Positions 7,985-63,537 of a stretch of 64,000 nt of DNA are shown piece after piece. A program made the translations under genes and the position numbers. Each line of letters starts with the position of its first letter. The first letter of the stretch is position 1. Origin of the DNA: Heloderma charlesbogerti (lineage: Eukaryota; Chordata; Lepidosauria; Squamata; Helodermatidae); assembly GCA_026122225.1 (NCBI GenBank), contig JANEZZ010003056.1, positions 372,001 to 436,000 on the forward strand, read 5' to 3'. The notes beneath the pieces were generated by a model that was given only the letters and a program-made list of their open reading frames with translations, ran no database searches and had not been told where the DNA came from.

Positions 7985-8202
7985 CCAGGTGGCAGGTCAG
8001 AAGACCAGCCGCCGGAGCCGCTGCCAGAGCCGCCGCCAGAGCCGCCGCTGCCCGGAAGGTCCGCCCCAGGTGAGTCTCGTCCTGGGGGGGATCCGCGGGG
8101 GGGGCGGGATGTGGCAGGCCGTTCCGCCATGGAGTTTGGGGAGCCGAATGCACTGGCATTCGGCCTCACCGAGATCCGTGGCGGAATTCTCTGACATCCC
8201 TA
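7985..8202 (+). mobile_element. Hairpin transposon copy C (right-end module T1 only)
   Basis: This stretch matches the right 200 bases of copies A, B and H: a CpG-rich GCCGCCGCC block, a splice-donor-like CAG|GTGAGT at 8070-8075, a hairpin around GCCGAATGCA/TGGCATTCGGC, and the GAATTCTCTGACATCCCTA terminus. The palindromic core and left end are absent. To the right lies LTR sequence also seen at 57.4 kb, so the copy was once inserted in that LTR. Confidence 0.8.
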
Positions 8203-8236: not shown

Positions 8237-8812
8237 TAGGGATGGACGAAAGTCACTTACCTGATCCCAAAGCTTGCTTCGCGGTGGGGGGGAGGTGCTC
8301 CGTCCCTCTCCCTGAAATTCTGGGCGGAGGGGGAGGCGCCCTGTCCCTCCCCACCAAAATTCTGGCCGGGGGCGAGCGCCCCATCTCTCCGGCCGCGAAA
8401 CCTCTTCTCCTGTCCCTGGCCTGCAGTCAGCCATGATAGGCTACATAAATGTTTACGTAGCCTATCACGGCTGACTTTGGGAAAAAAAAAAGCACGTACG
8501 CAAATGGCGGCGCCGATGGGCGCTGCCATTTGTGTTCCTTATTTTGGCAGGGGTAGTCTATGTAAATATTTACGTAGACAGTAGACTACGGCGAAAATAA
8601 GGGCAACGCAAATAGCGTTGCCCTTATTTTCACTGTAGTCTACGTAAATATTTACCTAGACTACCCGTGCCAAAATAAGAAATGCAAATGGCGGCGCGCG
8701 TATGCGCTTCCCCCCCCCCCAAAGTCAGCCGTGATAGGCTACGTAAACATTTACATAGCCTATCATGGTGTTTTTTGAAAATCTAGCCATGATAGGCTAT
8801 GTAAGTCTTTAC

Positions 8813-9033
8813 TAGGGATGGGCGAAAGTCCGTTACCTGTTCTCGAAGCTTGCTTCGCGGTGGGGGGGAGGCGCTTCGGTTCTCCCCCCGAAGTTCAGGC
8901 GAGGGGGGGAGGTGCCCCGCCTCGCCCGGCCGAAATTCAGGCCAGTGGGGAGGTGCCCCATCCCTCGCCGGCGAAATTCAAGCTGGGTAGAAGCGCCCCG
9001 TCTACCCGGCCGCGAAAAAAAGAGTAAAACACA

Positions 9034-9067
<34 letters not shown>

Positions 9068-9798
9068 ATAGGCTACGTAACAATTTACGTAGCCTATCAC
9101 GGCTAGATTTCCAAAGTCAGCCGTGATAGGCTACGTAAATCGTCACGTAGCCTATCACGGGTGACTTTGAAAAAAAAAAGCACGTACGCAAATGGTGGCT
9201 CCCATGGGGACCGCCATTTGCGTTTCTTATTTTGGCACGTCTAGTCTACGTAAAGATTTATGTAGACTACGGCGAAAATAAGGGCAACGCAAATAGTGTT
9301 CCCTTATTTTCTCCATAGTCTACGTAAATGTTTACGTAGACTAGACGTGCCAAAATAAGGAACGCAAATGGCGGCGCCCATGGGCCACTGCCATTTGCGT
9401 ACGTGCTTTTTTTTTTTTCCCCCAAAGTCAGCCGTGATAGGCTACGTGACGATTTATGTAGCCTATCACGGCTGACTTTGGAAATCTAGCCGTGATAGGC
9501 TACGTAAATCGTTACGTAGCCTATCACTGGTGTGTGTTTCTTTTTTTTACCGCACTGTTTTTTTTGCAATGGTGGCGGCGGCAGCCGGTCGGGAGACCGG
9601 CCGCCGCCCCTGCCCCTGACGAACCGCTGCCGAACCGCCGCCAGGACCCGCCGCCGAGAGGGACATTCGGCCACGGTAAGTCCCATCCTGAGGGGGGGGT
9701 GGGGGGCCGGCAGAGAATTTCCGCACCAATTTCGGGGGGCCGAATGCGTTGGCATTCGGCGTCCCGAAGATTCGGGGAGAAATTCTCCACCATCCCTA
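8813..9798 (+). mobile_element. Hairpin transposon copy B, nested inside copy A
   Basis: Complete copy of 986 bases: T2 (8813-9018), a short (CA)n tract, palindromic core (9064-9530) and T1 (9567-9798). It is flanked by GTCTTTAC (8805-8812) and ATCTTTAC (9799-9806), an 8-bp duplication with one difference. The interrupted sequence is the centre of a palindrome in copy A (GATAGGCTATGTAA...TTTACGGAGTCTATC), so the element inserted into a relative at its dyad axis. Donor-like motifs: minus strand GTAACG at 8831-8836 and plus strand GTAAGT at 9676-9681. Confidence 0.9.
9034..9064 (+). repeat. (CA)n inside copy B
   Basis: About fifteen CA units lie between module T2 and the core, where copy D has only an AAAACACAAAAC tract in the equivalent place. 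This is a local expansion after insertion. Confidence 0.9.
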
Positions 9799-10058
9799 AT
9801 CTTTACGGAGTCTATCACGTGTGTTGTTGTTGTTGTTGTTTTACTTGGAAATGGCGGCGGCGGCGGCAGCCAGTTGGAAGACTGGCTGCTGCCGCTGAAC
9901 CGCCGCCGGGAGCCGCTGCCGCCAGGGACATTCGCTCAAGGTAAGTCCCATCCCGGGGGGGGGGCGGTGGCGGACCGTTTCTCCACCAATTTCGGGGGGC
10001 CAAATGAGTTGGCATTCAGCCTCCCGGAGATTCGTGGAGAAATTCTCTGACATCCCTA

Positions 10059-13230: not shown

Positions 13231-13364
13231 GGGTCATCAAAAGGAACCATGAGCAGAGAGATACAACAGCAGCGAATTAAACCAAATAGAATCAGCAAGG
13301 CACATTTAAGCATCAAAAGAGAGTCTAAGTAGAAAGTTTCTTAAGTACGGAAACCTACGCATGT

Positions 13365-16802: not shown

Positions 16803-17058
16803 TAGGGATGGCGGAGAATTCCACCACAGACTACAATGAGGCTGGATTCTAAGAATCCGGCCCCCTGGAGTCTGCGGCGGAACAAAAGACTCACCTCCGC
16901 CACCTGGGGGAATCCGCGCCGGCTGGATCCTACCTGCCGCCATCCATCCGCTGCCGTCCGCTGCTGCCTGTCTTCGGATGCGAATGGCATTGGCATCCGG
17001 CGTAGCGGATGCCATTTGAATCCCTCCTCTTTGCCGTGATAGGCTACGTAAAGATTTA
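16803..17058 (+). mobile_element. Hairpin transposon copy F (left half, type-2 ends)
   Basis: Starts TAGGGATGGCGGAGAATTCC and shares its left module (T3) with copy E near 44.1 kb: a GGATTCT/AGAATCC hairpin, an outward donor-like GTGAGT on the minus strand at 16889-16894, a GCATTGGCATCC segment, and the GCGGATGCCATTTG repeat. It stops at 17058, a few bases beyond the dyad of the first GATAGGCTACGTAAA palindrome. Everything to the right of that axis is missing. Confidence 0.8.
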
Positions 17059-23785: not shown

Positions 23786-23864
23786 GTGCAATCCTATGCA
23801 TGTTTAGACAGAAAAGAGCCCTACAACTCCCAGCATTCCCCAGCCACGAGAAAAATCCAACAGC

Positions 23865-24804
23865 TAGGGATGGGGGAGAATTTCTCCCCGAAACTTCGGG
23901 GCACCGAGTGCCAACGCATTCAGCCCCCTGAAATCAGCGGTGAAATTCTCTGCCCCCCCTGGGATGGGACTTACCTTTCACGAATGTCCCTCCCGGCGGC
24001 GGGTCCCGGCAGCGGTTCGGCGGGTTTTTCACAGGGGCGGGGGCAGCAGCCGGGCTTTTGACTGGCCGCCGCTGCTGCCACTACAAGGAAAGTAAAAAAA
24101 ACACAAAACCCGTGATAGGCTACGTAACGATTAACGTAGCCTATCATGGCTAGATCTCCAAAGTCAGCCATGATAGGCTACGTTAATCGTTACGTAGCCT
24201 ATCACGGGTGACTTTGAAAAAAAATTAAAAAAGCGCGTATGCTAATGGCGGCCCCCATAGGGCGCCGCCATTTGCGTTCCTTATTTGGTCCCTGTAGTCT
24301 ACGTAATGATTTACGTAGACTACGGCGAAAATAAGGGCAACGCTATTTGTGTTGCCCTTATTTTCGCCGTAGTCTACGTAAATCTTTACGTAGACTACAG
24401 GGACCAAATAAGGAACGCAAATGGCGGCGCCCTATGGGGGCCACCATTTGTGTACGCGCTTTTTTTTTTTTTAAAGTCACCCGTGATAGCCTACGTGACG
24501 ATTTACGTAGCCTATCACGGCTGACTTTGGAAATCTAGCCGTGATAGGCTACGTAAATCGTTACGTAGCCTATCACGTTGTTTTTTTTTTACTTTTTTTT
24601 TCGCAGCCGGGTAGACGGGGCGCTTCTACCCGGCCTGAATTTCGCCAGCGAGGGATGGGGCGCCTCCCCCCCGGCCTGAATTTCGACCGGGCGAGGTGGG
24701 GCGCCTCCCCCCCCTTGCCTGAACTTAGGGGGAGGAACCAAAGTGCCTCCCCGCCACCACGAAGCAAGCTTCGAGAACAGGTAAGGGACTTTCGTCCATC
24801 CCTA
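23865..24804 (-). mobile_element. Hairpin transposon copy D (complete, reference copy)
   Basis: A 940-base element from TAGGGATG to CATCCCTA with a perfect 8-bp target duplication CCAACAGC (23857-23864 and 24805-24812). It is in the opposite orientation to A, B and H: T1 is on the left (23865-24090), the core is 24112-24577, and T2 is on the right (24590-24804). Outward donor-like motifs lie at 23969-23974 (minus strand, GTAAGT) and 24781-24786 (plus strand, GTAAGG after ACAG). It is non-coding. The 8-bp duplication supports the hAT superfamily. Confidence 0.92.
24112..24577. repeat. Nested palindromic core of copy D
   Basis: Nine inverted repeats are arranged symmetrically about an axis near 24345. 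P1 24112-24147, P2 24170-24206 and their mirrors 24483-24518 and 24540-24577 are variants of GATAGGCTACGTAA/TTACGTAGCCTATC. P3 24244-24272 and its mirror 24419-24449 are AATGGCGGC/GCCGCCATT. P4 24294-24324 and its mirror 24369-24398 are GTAGTCTACGTAA/TTACGTAGACTAC. The centre P5 24324-24368 is GGCGAAAATAAGGGCAAC and its inverse. The left and right halves are also inverted copies of each other. Confidence 0.95.
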
Positions 24805-24890
24805 CCAACAGCATGGCTGGCTGGGGAATGCTGCGAGTTGTAGGACTTTTTTCTGTCTGAACGTGCATAGGGTTGCGGCCTTGGTCACTA

Positions 24891-25114: not shown

Positions 25115-25254
25115 CTTCAGGCCCTACCAGGAAGGCCCTGAAGACATAATTGTTTTCTCTGGCCTTACCCTGATTTTGTTTTACTGGGCTGTCTTGCTTT
25201 GTAGCTGCAACTGTGTTTTAGATTTTAGTACTGTCTAGGCCAGATGGCCCCTTC

Positions 25255-26250
25255 ATGGATCACTGCCTTGTTGTGGCAATGTGGTCCACTGGAGAAGGAA
25301 ATGGCAACCCACTCCAGTATTCTTGCCAAGAAAACCCCATGGAATGTATCACAAGGCTAAAAGATATGACGCTGGAAGATGAGCCCCTCAGGTCGGAAGG
25401 CGTCCAATATACTACTGGGGAAGAGCAGAGGGAATTTCCAAGTATTGCCAGAAAGAGGGAAGCAGCTGGGCCAAAGCCAAAAGGACACTCATCTGTGGAT
25501 GTGTCTGGTGGTGAAAATAAAGTCCAGTGCTGTAAAGAACAATATGGTTTAGGAACCTGGAATGTAAGATCAATGAATCAAGGTAAGCTGGAGGTGGTCA
25601 AACATGAGATGGCAAGATTGAACATCGACATCTTGGGAATCAGCAAACTCAAATGGACAAGCATGGGCGAATTTAATTCAGCTGACCATTATATCTACTA
25701 CTGTGGGCAAGAATCCCTTAGAAGAAATGGAGTAGCACTCATAGTCAACAAAAGGGAGGGAAAAGCAGTACTGGGGTACAATCTCAAAAACGATGGAATG
25801 ATCTCAGTACGAATCCAAGGCGAACCATTCAACATCACAGTGATTCAGGTCTATGCCCCAACCACTGAGGCCGAAGAAGCTGAGGTTGATCGGTTCTATG
25901 AAGACCTACAACACCTTCTAGAACTAACACCAAAAAAAGATGTCCTCTTCATCATAGGGGATTGGAATGCTAAAGCAGGAAGTCAAGAAATCACTGGGAT
26001 AACAGGCAAGCATGGCCTTGGTATACAAAATGAAGCAGGACAAAGGCTAATAGTTCTGCCAAGGGAACACGCTGATCATAGCAAACACTCTTTTCCAACA
26101 GCACAAGAGACGACTCTACACATGGACATCACCAGATGGTCAATATCGAAATCAGATTGATTATGTCCTTTGCAGCCAAAGATGGAGAAGCTCTATACAG
26201 TCAGTCAAAACAAGACCTGGAGCTGACTGTGGCTCAGATCATGAGCTGCT
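25255..26250 (+). pseudogene. BovB endonuclease domain remnant
   Basis: Frame 25255-26157 carries the leader and the APE-type endonuclease: LGTWNVRSMNQGKLE (metal-binding Asn), DILGISKLKWTSMGEF, VIQVYAPTTEAEE and FIIGDWNAKAGS. In ISKLKW the catalytic glutamate expected in the family (ISELKW) is lysine. After about residue 265 the frame shifts, and the final motifs IDYVLCSQRW and GSDHELL are read in another frame up to 26250. The domain should be inactive. Confidence 0.9.
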
Positions 26251-27855
26251 TCTTGCAAAATTTTGGCTTCAATTGAAGAAGGTAGGGAAAACCACTAAAC
26301 CATTCAGGTATGACCTAAATCATATCCCTTATGAATATACAGTGGAGGTGAGGAATAGATTTCAGGGATTAGACCTGATAGACAGAGTGCCTGAGGAACT
26401 ATGGACGGAGGTCCGTAACATTGTTCAGGAGGCAGCAACGAAATCCATTCCAAAGAAACAGAAATGCAAGTAAGCCAAGTGGCTGTCTGATGAGGCTTTA
26501 CAAGTAGCTGAGGAAAGAAGGGAAGCGAAAAGCAAGGGAGAAAGGGGAAGATATCTCCAACTGAGTGCAGAGTTCCAGAGAATAGCAAGGAGAGACAAGA
26601 AGGCCTTCTTAAATGAACAATGCAAAGAAATCGAGGAAAACAATAGAATGGGAAAGACTAGAGATCTCTTCAAGAAAATCGGAGATCTCAAGGGAATGTT
26701 TTGTGCAAAGACGGGCATGATAAAGGACAAAGAAGGCAGGGACCTAACAGAAGCACATGAGATTAAGAAGAGGTGGAAAGAATACACAGAAGAACTATAC
26801 AGGAAAGATCTTAATGTCCCTGATAGCCTTGATAGTGCAGTCACTGAAATTGTGCCGGACATCCTAGAGAGTGAAGTCAAGTGGCCCTTAGGAAGCATTA
26901 CTAACAACAAAGCTAGCGGAGATGACAGTATTCCAGCTGAACTACTTAAAATCCTAAATGATGATGCTGTTCAAGTGCTGCACTCAATATGCCAACAAAT
27001 TTGGAACACTCAGCAGTGGCCACAAGACTGGAAAAGGTCAGTTTACATCCCAATTCCAAAGAAGGGCAATGCCAAAGAGTGTTCAAACTACCGTACAATT
27101 GCGCTCATTTCACATGCCAGGAAGGTGATGCTCAAAATCATACAAGCTAGGCTTCAGCAGCATGTGAACCGAGAACTACCGGAAGTACAAGCTGGGTTTC
27201 GAAGAGGCAGAGGAACTGGAGATCAAATCGCCAACATTCGCTGGATCATGGAGAAAGCAAGAGAATTCCAGAAAAACATCTATTTCTGCTTCATTGACTA
27301 CGCTAAAGCCTTTGATTGTGTGGATCACAACAAACTGTGGCAAATTCTGAAAGAGATGGGAGTACCAGACCACCTTACCTGTTTCCTGAGAAACCTGTAC
27401 GGAGGTCAAGAAGCAACAGTAAGAACCAGACATGGAACAACCGATTGGTTCAAAATTGGGAAAGGAGTACAACAAGGCTGTATATTGTCGCCCCGCTTAT
27501 TTAACTTATATGCAGAGTACATCATGAGAAACACCAGGCTGGATGAATCACAGGTCGGAATTAAGATTGCCAGGAGAATTATCAACATCCTCAGATACGC
27601 AGACGAGACCACCCTAATGGCAGAATGCAAAGAGGATCTAAAGAGCCTCTTGTTGAGGGTGAAAGTGGAGAGTGCAAAAGCTGGTTTGAAACTCAACATT
27701 AAAAAAACTAAGATAACGGCATGTGGCCCCATCACTTCCTGGCATATTTTCTTGGGCTCCAAGATCACCGCAGACGGTGACTGTAGCCATGAAATTAAAA
27801 GATGCTTGCTCCTTGGGAGGAAAGCTATGGCAAACCTAGACAGCATAGTAAGAAG
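26251..27855 (+). pseudogene. BovB reverse-transcriptase domain remnant
   Basis: A linker (stop near 26471) leads into the long frame from 26648. RT motifs in order: NNKASGDDSIPAELLK, WPQDWKRSVYIPIPKKG, CSNYRTIALISH, GFRRGRGTGDQI, FCFIDYAKAFDCVDH (motif A), QQGCILSPRLFNLYAEYIMR, and ILRYADETTLMAE (motif C). Motif C is YADE where the active family reads YADD, so one catalytic aspartate is lost. The frame is cut after GRKAMANLDSIVRS by a CR1 insertion, and the C-terminal region resumes out of frame beyond it. Confidence 0.92.
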
Positions 27856-28231
27856 CATGTTTAGCCTTGAGAAGAGAAGACTGAGGGGAGATATGATAGC
27901 ACTCTTCAAGGACTTGAAAGGTTGTCACAGAGAAGAAGGCCAGGATCTCTTCTTGATCATCCCAGAGTGCAGGACACGGAATAATGGGCTCAAGTTACAG
28001 GAAGCCAGATTCCGGCTGAACATCAGGAAAAACCTCCTGACTGTTAGAGCAATACGATAATGGAACCAATTACCTGGGGAGGTGGTGGGCTCTCCCACAC
28101 TGGAGGCATTCAAGATGAGGCTGGACAGCCATCTGTCAGGGATGCTCTGACTTGGATTCCTGCATTGAGCAGGGGGTTGGACTTGATGGCCTTGTAGGCC
28201 CCTTCCAACCCTACTATTCTATGATGCTATA
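27856..28231 (+). mobile_element. CR1 subfamily A 3' end nested in BovB
   Basis: Begins MFSLEKRRLRGDMIALFKDLKG in the BovB frame and runs through ECRTRNNGLKLQEARF to its stop, then the 3' UTR with TGCATTGAGCAGGGGGTTGG and CCAACCCTACTATTCTATGA. BovB sequence resumes with AGCAGAGACAAAG. It is a 5'-truncated insertion younger than the BovB. No long duplication is visible, which is normal for CR1. Confidence 0.9.
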
Positions 28232-39065: not shown

Positions 39066-40020
39066 GGATTGAAGCACCTTCTCCTGACTACGTGTTATCT
39101 ACTGTAGCCATCTTTTAGGCCAGTTCTATTTCAGCAAGCATGTATATATTTTTTGCCAGCACTCTCCCAAACATAGGTTCACAGTCATAAGAGCTAGAAA
39201 CTCATATCCTCCAACATGTCCCAGATAAAAATAGGGATAGGCCTGGGCTCACAATTCATAGCACCCCTCTTCTAACATAGATGGAATCACTGCCTAAGTT
39301 TCTATTCACTACTACTTCACAGTGGTGGCTGGTGAAGTAAGAACTGCCAGCTGTGTCTGTGTGGAGTTTACCAGAAACAAGAGAGAGGCAGTGATGGACA
39401 CAGGCGGGCACCTCAGTTGGCAAGGTGCAAGTGGGTGGTTGCTGACTGGCTAGCTGCCCTTGGCAGGAATTGGCTGCAGATGTCAGTGAGGGTGGCTAGC
39501 CAATCAGCAACCCTGCTTTTGCAGAATGCCGACTGATTGTGCATGCCTCCTCTTGGGTTCTGGTAAGAAATGGAATTCCCGTAGCCCCTTAACCACCCCG
39601 TAGTGGCAATGCTCTTTCCTACTAGATGAACCTCTTCACAGCCCTTGTTGCTCCTGCATATACCTGAGGCTGTTCTCTTCCTGCTGTATACCATATTGTG
39701 CTTGCAAAAACAACAACACCCAAACAAACTCCAAACCCCATGACATCTGGATAAACTTACAACTGCTCGCTAGAGAGAATGTTGCATATTAAAGAGAGGA
39801 ACCATTTGGCAGGCAGCAGGCAGAAGAGGAAAGTTCTCTGTTAATGATCCAGCTCTGTTCGGGAAGGTTCCCAAGCCTCTGTACTTCCAAGCTTTTTTGC
39901 TATCCTTGGTGAATTCAATTTTTTGCCTTCTGGCCTTTATATCTGATCATATGCTGAGCAGCAAAACATAACATGATTAGGAATAGCTGCTAAGTAGCAT
40001 CCACGTCCCTCCCCCAAAGA
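39066..40020. other. Unassigned sequence
   Basis: No recognised family. A minus-strand 104-codon frame near 39413 has no domain. Confidence 0.4.
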
Positions 40021-44134: not shown

Positions 44135-44756
44135 TAGGGATGTTGGAGAAATCCTCCACAGACCCCAATGAGGCCGGATTCTATTGAATCCAGGCTCCTG
44201 AAGTCTGTGGAGGATCCGATCGCCTACCTCCACCTCCCTCACGAAGTCCTCACCGGCAGACCCTGCCTGCTGCCAGCTCCGAAGCCCCAGCGATATGGCC
44301 TCCATTGCTGTATCGCTAGCTGGGCTGACAAACTGCAGATGCAAATGGCGTCTGGAGTAGCAGACGCCATTTGCATCCCTGCTCTTTGATATGATAAGAT
44401 ACGTAAATCTTTACGTAGCCCATCGCGCGAAGGAACAGGGACTCAAATACACCATTTGCGTCCCTGTTCCTTCGCACGATAGGCTACACAAAGATTTACG
44501 TAGCCTATCATGTCAAAGAGCAGGGACACAAATGGCGTCCGCTATGCCAGATGCCATTTGCGTCCGCAGCTTGTCAGTCCAGCCAACGATACGGCAATGG
44601 CGGCCGTATCACTGGGGCTTCGGAGCCGGTTGGCGGCTCTGTGGAATTGCCATGGAGCGGAGCCAGCCGGCAAGGATTCCTGGGGGGAGGAGCGGATCGC
44701 CTCGCCCCTGGCAGACCCCCCCGTGGACGGCAAGGTAAGGAATTTGTACATCCCTA
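44135..44756 (+). mobile_element. Hairpin transposon copy E (type-2 ends)
   Basis: From TAGGGATGTTGG to TACATCCCTA, 622 bases. The core is simpler than in D: GATACGTAAATCTTTACGTAGC (44398) and its mirror (44481-44511) flank a GGAACAGGGAC/GTCCCTGTTCC centre near 44450. These are enclosed by GCAAATGGCG...CGCCATTTGC hairpins (44340-44374, 44528-44563). The right end has an outward GTAAGG at 44735-44740, 21 bases from the terminus. The left-end equivalent is degraded (GTAGGC, minus strand, near 44222). Flanks AGAGGTCA/GTGGTGGC match poorly. Confidence 0.82.
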
Positions 44757-54009: not shown

Positions 54010-54084
54010 TGCCAGAATCCAGAGGCTGGATTCACAGAAATCCAAACTCGTTTGATTCTGTTGAGGATTCCTCCAACATCCCTA
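54010..54084 (-). mobile_element. Hairpin transposon copy G (type-2 end fragment)
   Basis: In reverse complement it starts TAGGGATGTTGGAGGAATCC and continues with a GGATT/AATCC hairpin, matching the left end of copy E. Only about 75 bases remain. Confidence 0.65.
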
Positions 54085-56894: not shown

Positions 56895-57449
56895 TGTCAG
56901 GAGCGCCCTAGCTGCCTCTTGCAGTCCTCTCCAATAGCCAACTCAGGACACAGACGACGAGGATTCTTTCCAAGGCTTTATTCCTTTATTACTTTATGAC
57001 TCTTTCAGATACTAATCACCAGTGACTGAGCAAGGAGCAGCACTGGGGAAAGATAGCAGAGTAGCCTAAGCTCCAGATAAGGCAGTTGGTCCCCGTTTGA
57101 AGGGGAACCACAGGAAGACTCTGAACTTATGGGCTATGGAGAGGTCCTCCCTCTTTCCCTTGGGTCCTTGGGACGTGACCGTTGTTTGAGCGCCAAACGA
57201 GCAGAGCGCCTCCTTTCGGCTCCCTCCATCTGCCATTGCTCCCTGCATCTGCGCCGAGCGTCCAGCAAGCCCCCCTCCAGCGCTCTCTCGCTGCCAGGGT
57301 CACTATCTATCCCAGGAATGCTGGCAGGAGGAATCTCTGCCAGTTGCTGTGCCTGTGAGGGATGAGCTGGCTCCTCTCGCATGGATTGCTGTTCTTCCTC
57401 AGAATCAGAACTGCTCTGGAGCTCTATGGGCTCAGTGTCCACCCTGACA
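56895..57449 (-). mobile_element. Solo LTR of an LTR retroelement
   Basis: On the minus strand it runs TGTCAGGGTGG to GCGCTCCTGACA, the TG...CA form, for 555 bases. Flanks GGACC (56890-56894) and GGACT (57450-57454) are a 5-bp target duplication with one change. A poly-A signal AATAAA lies on the minus strand at 56977-56982. No internal genes flank it, as expected after recombination between two LTRs. Whether the parent was Gypsy-like or an endogenous retrovirus cannot be told from the LTR. A second, broken copy lies at 8.2-10.5 kb. Confidence 0.85.
57134..57442 (-). other. 102-codon open frame inside the LTR
   Basis: The minus-strand frame begins just inside the LTR 5' end. It has an acidic, serine-rich N-terminal region (SSSDSEEEQ) and an arginine-rich C-terminal part. 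In the 10-kb copy the same region is frameshifted. I do not recognise it. It may be chance, or a small product specific to this element. Confidence 0.3.
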
Positions 57450-57505
57450 GGACTGTTGGTCTGATCCAGCAGGGCTCTTCTTAGGTTCTTATGTTCTTAA
57501 GGCTT

Positions 57506-62734: not shown

Positions 62735-63537
62735 TAGGGATGTACAAAAGTCACTTACCTTTTCACAAAATGTGATTTGAGGTGGGGGGGAGGCGCTCCG
62801 TCCCTCCCCCCGATTTTCTGGCCGGGGGGGAGATGCTCCGTCCCTCCCCCCCGAAATTCTGGCCAGGGGAGGAGGCGCTCTGTCCCTCCCCCCCGAATCC
62901 TGGCCGGCCGGGTCCGCAAATGGCGGCGGCTGTAGCCACCGCCGTTTGCATCCCTGCAGTCAGCCGTGATAGGCTACGTAAATGTTTACGTAGCCTATCA
63001 CAGCTGAGTAAAAACAAAAAAAACAAAATGCGCGTACGCAAATGGCGGCGTAGTGTAGACGCTACGCTATTTGCGTTCCCCTTATTTTCGCCGTAGTCTA
63101 CATTTACGTAGACTACGTAATAGACTACACCATTAAAGTATCTACACCATTAAAATAAGGAACGCAAATGGCGGCGCCCATGGGCGCCGCCATTTGTGTA
63201 TGCACGTTGTTGTTGTTGTTTTTACTCAGCCGTGATAGGCTATGTAAACCTATTATTTTTAAAAAATCTAGCCGTGGTAGGCTACGTAAATCTTTACGTA
63301 GCCTATCACGTTGTTTTTTTTTTACTGGAAATGGCGGTGGCGGCGGCCGGTCAAAAGACTGGCCGCTGCCGCCGCCGAACCGCCGCTGAAGCCACCGCCG
63401 CCAGGAAGATTCACCCAAGGTAAGTCCCGTCCTGGGGGGGTCAGGGGGGCAGACCGTTTCGCCACCGATTTCCGGGGGCTGAATGCGCTGGCATTCGGCC
63501 TCCCCGAGATTCGTGGCGGAATTCTCTGACATCCCTA
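62735..63537 (+). mobile_element. Hairpin transposon copy H
   Basis: An 803-base copy in the same orientation as A and B: T2 (62735-62920), core (62956-63312) and T1 (63327-63537). The core has lost part of its right-hand side. Flanks CATGAAAC (62727-62734) and GATGAAAC (63540-63547) give a 7/8 duplication, with two extra bases (CT) after the right terminus. Outward donors: minus strand GTAAGT at 62754-62759 and plus strand GTAAGT at 63420-63425. Confidence 0.88.
63327..63425 (+). promoter_or_regulatory. First-exon-like end module of copy H
   Basis: GGAAATGGCGGTGGCGGCGG resembles a YY1 site (AAnATGGCGGC) overlapping an ATG. From that ATG the frame stays open for 30 codons (Ala/Arg-rich) up to CAAG|GTAAGT, where the next in-frame stop is the TAA inside the donor motif. 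CpG density is far above the surroundings. In copies A and B the same ATG frame meets a stop earlier, so the coding part is not conserved. The role as promoter and exon is inferred. Confidence 0.35.

Follow-up and report, generated by a model that had tools for sequence, protein, structure and literature searches.

Within the window, by which we mean the whole 64,000-nucleotide stretch of Heloderma charlesbogerti DNA analysed here, lies a complete transposable element, copy D, that carries, in order, a left-end hairpin, a GC-rich segment, a palindromic core and a right-end module that includes 41-bp repeats (Table 1). Its left end is TAGGGATG (23865-23872) and its right end CATCCCTA (24797-24804), and the 8-bp duplication CCAACAGC stands, identical on both sides, directly outside these ends, which bears out the proposal of the first-pass annotation that copy D moved as a unit. 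Ten of the 16 open reading frames of at least 50 amino acids in copy D were scanned, and in these no Pfam family rose above the cut-off, the sole trace being a weak match to DUF6905 (E 0.005, below cut-off); no match came from scanning viral_contigs with the core unit.

Table 1. Copy D, its parts and the related copies found in the 64-kb window
Feature	Position	Strand	Basis
Copy D, complete non-autonomous element, 940 bp, TAGGGATG...CATCCCTA	23865..24804	+	sequence, pairwise comparison
Left target-site duplication of copy D, CCAACAGC	23857..23864	.	
Right target-site duplication of copy D, CCAACAGC	24805..24812	.	
Left-end hairpin of copy D	23881..23945	+	paired changes over 30 aligned left ends
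Palindromic core of copy D, ~250 bp per arm, 511 bases	24089..24599	.	inverted repeats, DNA fold
Left nested palindrome, 44-nt arms at 100% complementarity	24108..24209	.	inverted repeats
Central palindrome, 122-nt arms at 94% complementarity	24220..24472	.	inverted repeats
Right nested palindrome, 41-nt arms at 95% complementarity	24482..24577	.	inverted repeats
Two 41-bp direct repeats by the right end of copy D	24629..24710	+	
Copy A, 986 bp, within copy B; duplication GTAAAGAT/GTAAAGAC (7/8)	8813..9798	-	
Copy B, split by copy A; imperfect duplication CCTGTGG/CCTGTGAG	8237..10058	-	
Copy C, 803 bp, more diverged subfamily; imperfect duplication	62735..63537	-	
Copy E, 622 bp, another palindromic subfamily, ends as in copy D	44135..44756	+	
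Left-end fragment	7988..8202	-	
Left-end fragment	16803..17058	+	
Left-end fragment	54013..54084	-	

The core is symmetric about an axis at 24344-24346, with outer arms at 24089-24224/24464-24599 (136 nt, 88%), inner arms at 24220-24341/24351-24472 (122 nt, 94%) and further inverted repeats nested within, at 24108-24151/24166-24209 (44 nt, 100%) and 24482-24522/24537-24577 (41 nt, 95%). Folded, it makes a single stem of about 250 bp that contains the smaller palindromes. Compared to dinucleotide shuffles, the RNA fold of the whole of copy D reaches −649 kcal/mol against a mean of −320 (20 shuffles; z −45.8), and the DNA fold of 24089-24599 reaches −273.7 against −62.6 (100 shuffles; z −45.4). 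When the window was cut into 127 half-overlapping 1-kb segments, 83 of them held no inverted repeat at the cut-off, and the eight top-ranked segments all lie on copies of the family, the ninth (starting at 40001) being the first that does not.

Both the axis and the folding check thus agree with the nested-palindrome architecture that the first-pass annotation had described, and this architecture is real. Its details fared less evenly: the axis that it placed near 24345 was recovered, but its count of nine symmetrically set inverted repeats was not reproduced, and the palindromic core, which it gave as 466 bases, measures 470 by the repeat bounds 24108-24577. The description of the core as a palindrome made of palindromes holds insofar as asymmetric spacers between the units show the large-scale arrangement to be inverted; in part, however, it restates the repetition of one palindromic unit, because, for a palindrome, inverted and direct copies are the same thing. 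As for the small motifs ascribed to the end modules, the hairpin GGGTAGA/TCTACCC lies at 24609-24615/24625-24631, and GAAGCTTGCTTC occurs as its reverse complement (24761-24772), but GCATTCGG is found in copy A and the consensus, copy D having GCATTCAG.

Further members of the family share the window. Copy A sits in a hairpin of copy B, and the insertion site of copy B has an unoccupied relative at 57115-57381, where the alignment crosses the insertion point; the repeat at 57115-57496, a relative of which hosts copy B, contains a 120-amino-acid open frame with no Pfam match. The duplication of copy C was absent from the end-pair scan described below (cut-off of at least 7/8), and a target duplication was looked for at copy E and none was seen. 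Copy D itself interrupts a different palindromic repeat, lying in the spacer between its arms (23779-23846/24818-24885); relatives of this repeat lie near 13351, 35875, 48889 and 62254.

A search of the genome (2.30 Gb in 3,246 contigs) with copy D returned 10,555 first-look candidates, the best 40 of which, copy D included, were scored; they lie on 40 different contigs, all are near full length, and the other 39 are 85 to 91% identical to copy D, a set of best matches that is hence biased toward copy D's own subfamily. The genome search called for in the first-pass annotation therefore uncovers a high-copy family of the same architecture and rejects the single locus or assembly artefact that it had raised as an objection. 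Chance was likewise rejected by a fold far beyond that of shuffles (z about −45), and we regard chance or artefact as a practically negligible explanation. Thirty-nine copies were fetched with 200-bp flanks, and both ends were found in 38 (the exception being L044). Their duplications are perfect over 8 bp in 24 of the 38, match at 7/8 in eight and at fewer positions in six, the ends having been picked partly by duplication match, with the left end coinciding with the start of the search alignment in 38/38. A search with copy E gave 10,716 candidates, and the best 40, which were scored, are nearly all full length.

With a four-member superfamily library as query, matches cover 13,239 bases (16%) of ten stretches that were set by round coordinates before reading and hold 82,000 bases; the matches fall in five of the ten, a D-like copy had already been located on nine of the ten contigs, and a single locus (L081) gives just over half of the matched bases. 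The reversed sequence of the same stretches, used as a control, yielded zero superfamily matches. The share is 7.4% in the 64-kb window, copy D counted, and 11.8% in 29 hAT-gene loci, and, as a rough estimate from a small sample, the superfamily makes up about a tenth of the genome. At five of the 38 D-like copies, the flanks continue across the insertion site into a relative that lacks the insertion. We also considered a preferred insertion into palindromes or into the element's own family and rejected it: five of the 38 copies are nested in relatives and nine have a relative within 100 bp, which is about what is expected from abundance. Tandem insertions, in which two complete elements have one common middle target duplication, were seen at L003 (904-2454), with GCTGGAAG three times, and at L081 (1286-2987), with GTTTTTTC, GTTTTTTC and GTTTTTTT.

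The two ends of the family are distinct, the left being TAGGGATGNNNGAGAA and the right, in the consensus, GGTAAGGGACTTTCGTCCATCCCTA. We scanned 287,841 bases (the window plus loci) for end pairs in which one or both ends could be typed and the duplication matched at 7/8 or better and obtained 31 pairs, or 28 once two composites and a false end (L059) were dropped; 21 of these are new, and seven are copy D and copies of the first set. Left-right pairs account for 27 of the 28, with one having an untyped end, and the number of left-left or right-right pairs with a target duplication in the 287,841 bases is zero out of 28. This suggests that two different ends are required by the mover, as in Hermes (PMC10368747). 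At L071 (872-1396), a left-type end stands at each side, with complementary flanks and no duplication; this is possibly the product of an inverted duplication.

Short terminal inverted repeats, TAGGGATG/CATCCCTA, are present, and they fit a YARNG start. Among 25 duplications, T occupies position 2 in 15, and A occupies position 6 in 14 and position 7 in 12; the duplications lean to nTnnnnAn, not strictly so, and CCAACAGC of copy D lies outside the pattern. A genome search for PF05699 (hAT) returned 871 candidates, and all of the 150 that were scored are above the cut-off. Judging by duplication length and ends, and not by a transposase, we consider it very probable that copy D is a non-autonomous, non-coding hAT-type cut-and-paste DNA transposon, which a hAT transposase acting in trans would move. 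On the same basis, the mover could come from another cut-and-paste superfamily that makes 8-bp duplications, such as a P-like one, but the lean to nTnnnnAn and the plentiful hAT genes make this very improbable. The family of hAT ORFs of 879 to 883 amino acids was tried as a partner and rejected: at 22 of the 30 hAT loci, the sequence of TAGGGATG type beside the gene is flanked by one constant sequence, CTACACAC, which is therefore not a target duplication. No left-type end was found in the three 7-kb hAT loci that were read. Transposase ORFs of this size at L078-L080 lie in stretches that are 97 to 99% identical over about 7 kb, which suggests that they belong to a larger, recently amplified unit.

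The family shows no recognised protein in the ORFs scanned, a high copy number and retained transposon ends, as MITEs do. MITEs are usually under about 600 bp, and the sizes here are 956 bp for the D-subfamily consensus and 514 to 986 bp over the elements compared; being above the MITE range, the element is termed here non-autonomous hAT-type and MITE-like.

The consensus was built from 40 sequences (copy D, copy A and 38 fetched copies), whose mean divergence from it is 6.1% (range, 4.7 to 10.0%). Aligning the consensus core to the reverse complement of that core gives 92.4% identity across 569 columns, and Watson-Crick pairing holds for 245 of the 249 pairs picked by the fold, so that the source element was highly symmetric. 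All of 23 elements, the consensus included, fold below their own eight shuffles (z −12.9 to −91.2). The longest inverted repeat per element spans 100 to 569 columns at 63 to 92% identity, the large core repeat being weak or short in several, and the layout of the core varies between subfamilies. To compare subfamilies, we set 14 of the 22 other elements against the D consensus, the remaining eight, under 700 bp, being left out. Changes in both arms number 254 against 129 expected if the arms were independent (ratio, 2.0), counted over related elements and hence not as independent events. Since two transitions at a G-C pair always yield a complementary pair, slid controls flatter this result, and the transversion count, scored separately, corrects for it: in the 14 elements, 96 of the 149 doubles with a left-arm transversion are complementary, against about 25% expected. 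There are 86 distinct paired changes, and 58 of 173 adjoin another, compared to 25.5 at random and a maximum of 44 in 500 simulations. Such clustering is what copied tracts would give, and it may come partly from alignment in repetitive stretches. The two core arms appear to have changed together during the evolution of the family.

Within the D subfamily (39 copies), 789 of 854 changed pairs are changed in one arm only, so that inserted copies lose symmetry. Changes found in one copy alone include two doubles against 0.8 expected and are without clear pairing. All doubles within the subfamily amount to 65 against a uniform expectation of 23, a ratio of 2.8 that is not below the 2.0 found between subfamilies, and 17 of 22 transversion doubles are complementary. 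A pair-by-pair count over the D subfamily and copy A, the expectation of which absorbs shared variation, gives a small excess, 82 against 68, or 44 against 27 outside CpG. The doubles resolve into 44 distinct changes, 14 of them shared, holding 35 of the 65 cells, and 30 confined to a single copy. We read the excess as differences between sub-subfamilies; some ongoing arm copying in certain copies is possible.

Taken together, we favour, with a probability of roughly two in three, a hAT-type element that is moved in trans, has a core derived from an inverted duplication and has its arms renewed by copying. Here, a transposase supplied in trans would act on the two different ends, the core would have arisen by inverted duplication, and, in lineages that are still mobile, one arm would occasionally be copied onto the other through template switching or repair at the hairpin, in replication or after excision. 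Source copies would in this way regain symmetry, and inserted copies would change one arm at a time. Arm copying is suggested by the fact that paired changes come in tracts, and we put the chances that it is the mechanism at about even. More tentative, and in our view somewhat doubtful, is the broader idea that the palindromic form is passed on even as its letters change and that a self-symmetrising superfamily has in this manner come to occupy about a tenth of a vertebrate genome.

The main rival to arm copying is selection for symmetry, in which the units would be bound by a transposase or host factor, or extruded as cruciforms, and would aid transposition; the contrast between subfamily and private changes fits either arm copying in mobile lineages or selection. 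In agreement with selection, 14 of the 21 pairs of the left-end hairpin are changed on both sides when 30 left ends are compared. The percentage paired, the doubly changed cells and the covariation score all beat 500 of 500 shuffles, and the count of pairs changed on both sides beats 498 of 500, in left ends that are related and therefore do not represent independent events (L059 was dropped from the alignment as a false end, and L056a and L085 for large gaps). Further, in Hermes, a quasi-palindrome that spans bp 11-27 of the left end, and of that end alone, is bound by paired BED domains (PMC10368747), and in copy D the left end alone contains a perfect 17-bp palindrome, at bp 9-25. However, this small palindrome is not conserved in relatives (68.9% paired versus 67.9% in shuffles, 81 of 500 shuffles being as high), and a Hermes-like conserved site was rejected for it. 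Against selection also stands the variation in core layout by subfamily, the end requirements of hAT elements lying in the terminal 100 to 200 bp (PMC10368747). We rate selection as an unlikely explanation of the symmetry and retain arm copying in mobile lineages as the preferred one.

A role at the level of RNA could also be invoked, with read-through transcripts forming double-stranded RNA that enters small-RNA pathways, and the persistence of the hairpins explained thereby. The single long stem of the core would suit such a role, and MITE-derived hairpins give small RNAs in other systems, but the window holds no Rfam match at the gathering score, and silencing should harm the element and not preserve its symmetry; we find this role improbable. 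Double-stranded RNA, cruciforms and multiple transposase sites, all put forward in the first-pass annotation, are possibilities among the candidate roles of the copy D hairpins.

Several known elements invite comparison. Foldback elements have long terminal inverted repeats that fold back, as does Galileo, which has a 7-bp duplication. Copy D folds back like both, whereas its termini are short and unequal and its duplication is 8 bp; with long repeats that are internal and ends that differ, it was rejected as a Foldback element. The mar family of Drosophila is reportedly a hAT MITE family without coding capacity, and the copy D family is likewise non-coding and, very probably, of hAT type.

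The closest published case that we found is gadMor-hAT-1784 of Atlantic cod, which, with gadMor-hAT-8043, is presented in the available part of Araya et al. 2025 as a non-autonomous, hAT-derived MITE that the authors call palindromic (PMC12368964). In that part of the paper, the insertions average 1,334 and 1,404 bp at two breakpoint sets, and gadMor-hAT-1784 is piled up in tandem at inversion breakpoints (PMC12368964). On this account, the cod and copy D families are alike in being hAT-type and non-autonomous, in their multiple internal inverted repeats and in their tandem or overlapping insertions (PMC12368964), and the statement in the first-pass annotation that copy D goes beyond ordinary MITEs was an overstatement. 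Compared by description, the cod element has two terminal inverted repeats of about 600 bp made of 167- to 169-bp tandem units (PMC12368964), whereas the copy D family has its long repeats in the interior, flanked by two unlike ends with short repeats, and nests several unit types at several levels. Coevolution of the arms, found in the copy D family, is not reported for the cod family in the text available (PMC12368964). Hermes, as portrayed in the accessible sections of its description, makes 8-bp duplications with an nTnnnnAn preference and has two dissimilar ends and a palindromic left-end motif (PMC10368747); copy D resembles it in the 8-bp duplications, the dissimilar ends and a palindrome inside the left end. 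On the other hand, Hermes encodes a transposase and those sections describe no giant internal palindrome (PMC10368747), while the left-end palindrome of copy D is unconserved in relatives. In Anopheles gambiae, palindromic repeats make up six of the 32 MITE-like clusters that lack identity to known elements (PMC3212995), and for these the excerpt at hand describes neither a hAT assignment nor nested symmetry. The best-ranked matches in the open-licence literature, taken by titles and abstract openings, contain no description of the copy D family. We regard this family as a variant of the published palindromic hAT MITE kind, and it may already be named in a repeat database; the new point is that the arms change together between subfamilies.

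Large palindromes are usually regarded as unstable, which makes their origin and persistence in cut-and-paste elements a genuine question. An abundant family with several subfamilies, which differ in arm sequence and have the same symmetry, makes selection versus arm copying testable from genome data. In addition, long inverted repeats at such a density may matter for inversions, as is argued for the cod family in the available part of that paper (PMC12368964).

Two further observations concern copy D and its surroundings. An outward-facing, splice-donor-like AGGTAAG lies by each end of copy D, at 24778-24785 on the plus strand and 23969-23976 on the minus strand, and each of the two motifs is intact in three of the four copies A to D; an element bearing them could provide exon ends when located in introns. 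A BovB-type endonuclease and reverse transcriptase occupy 25222-28060 in two separate open frames. Among the best 120 of 5,269 matches to the reverse transcriptase (26474-28060) are proteins from Varanus, at the top, ruminants, Podarcis and Anolis and some labelled as bacteria, which we take for contamination.
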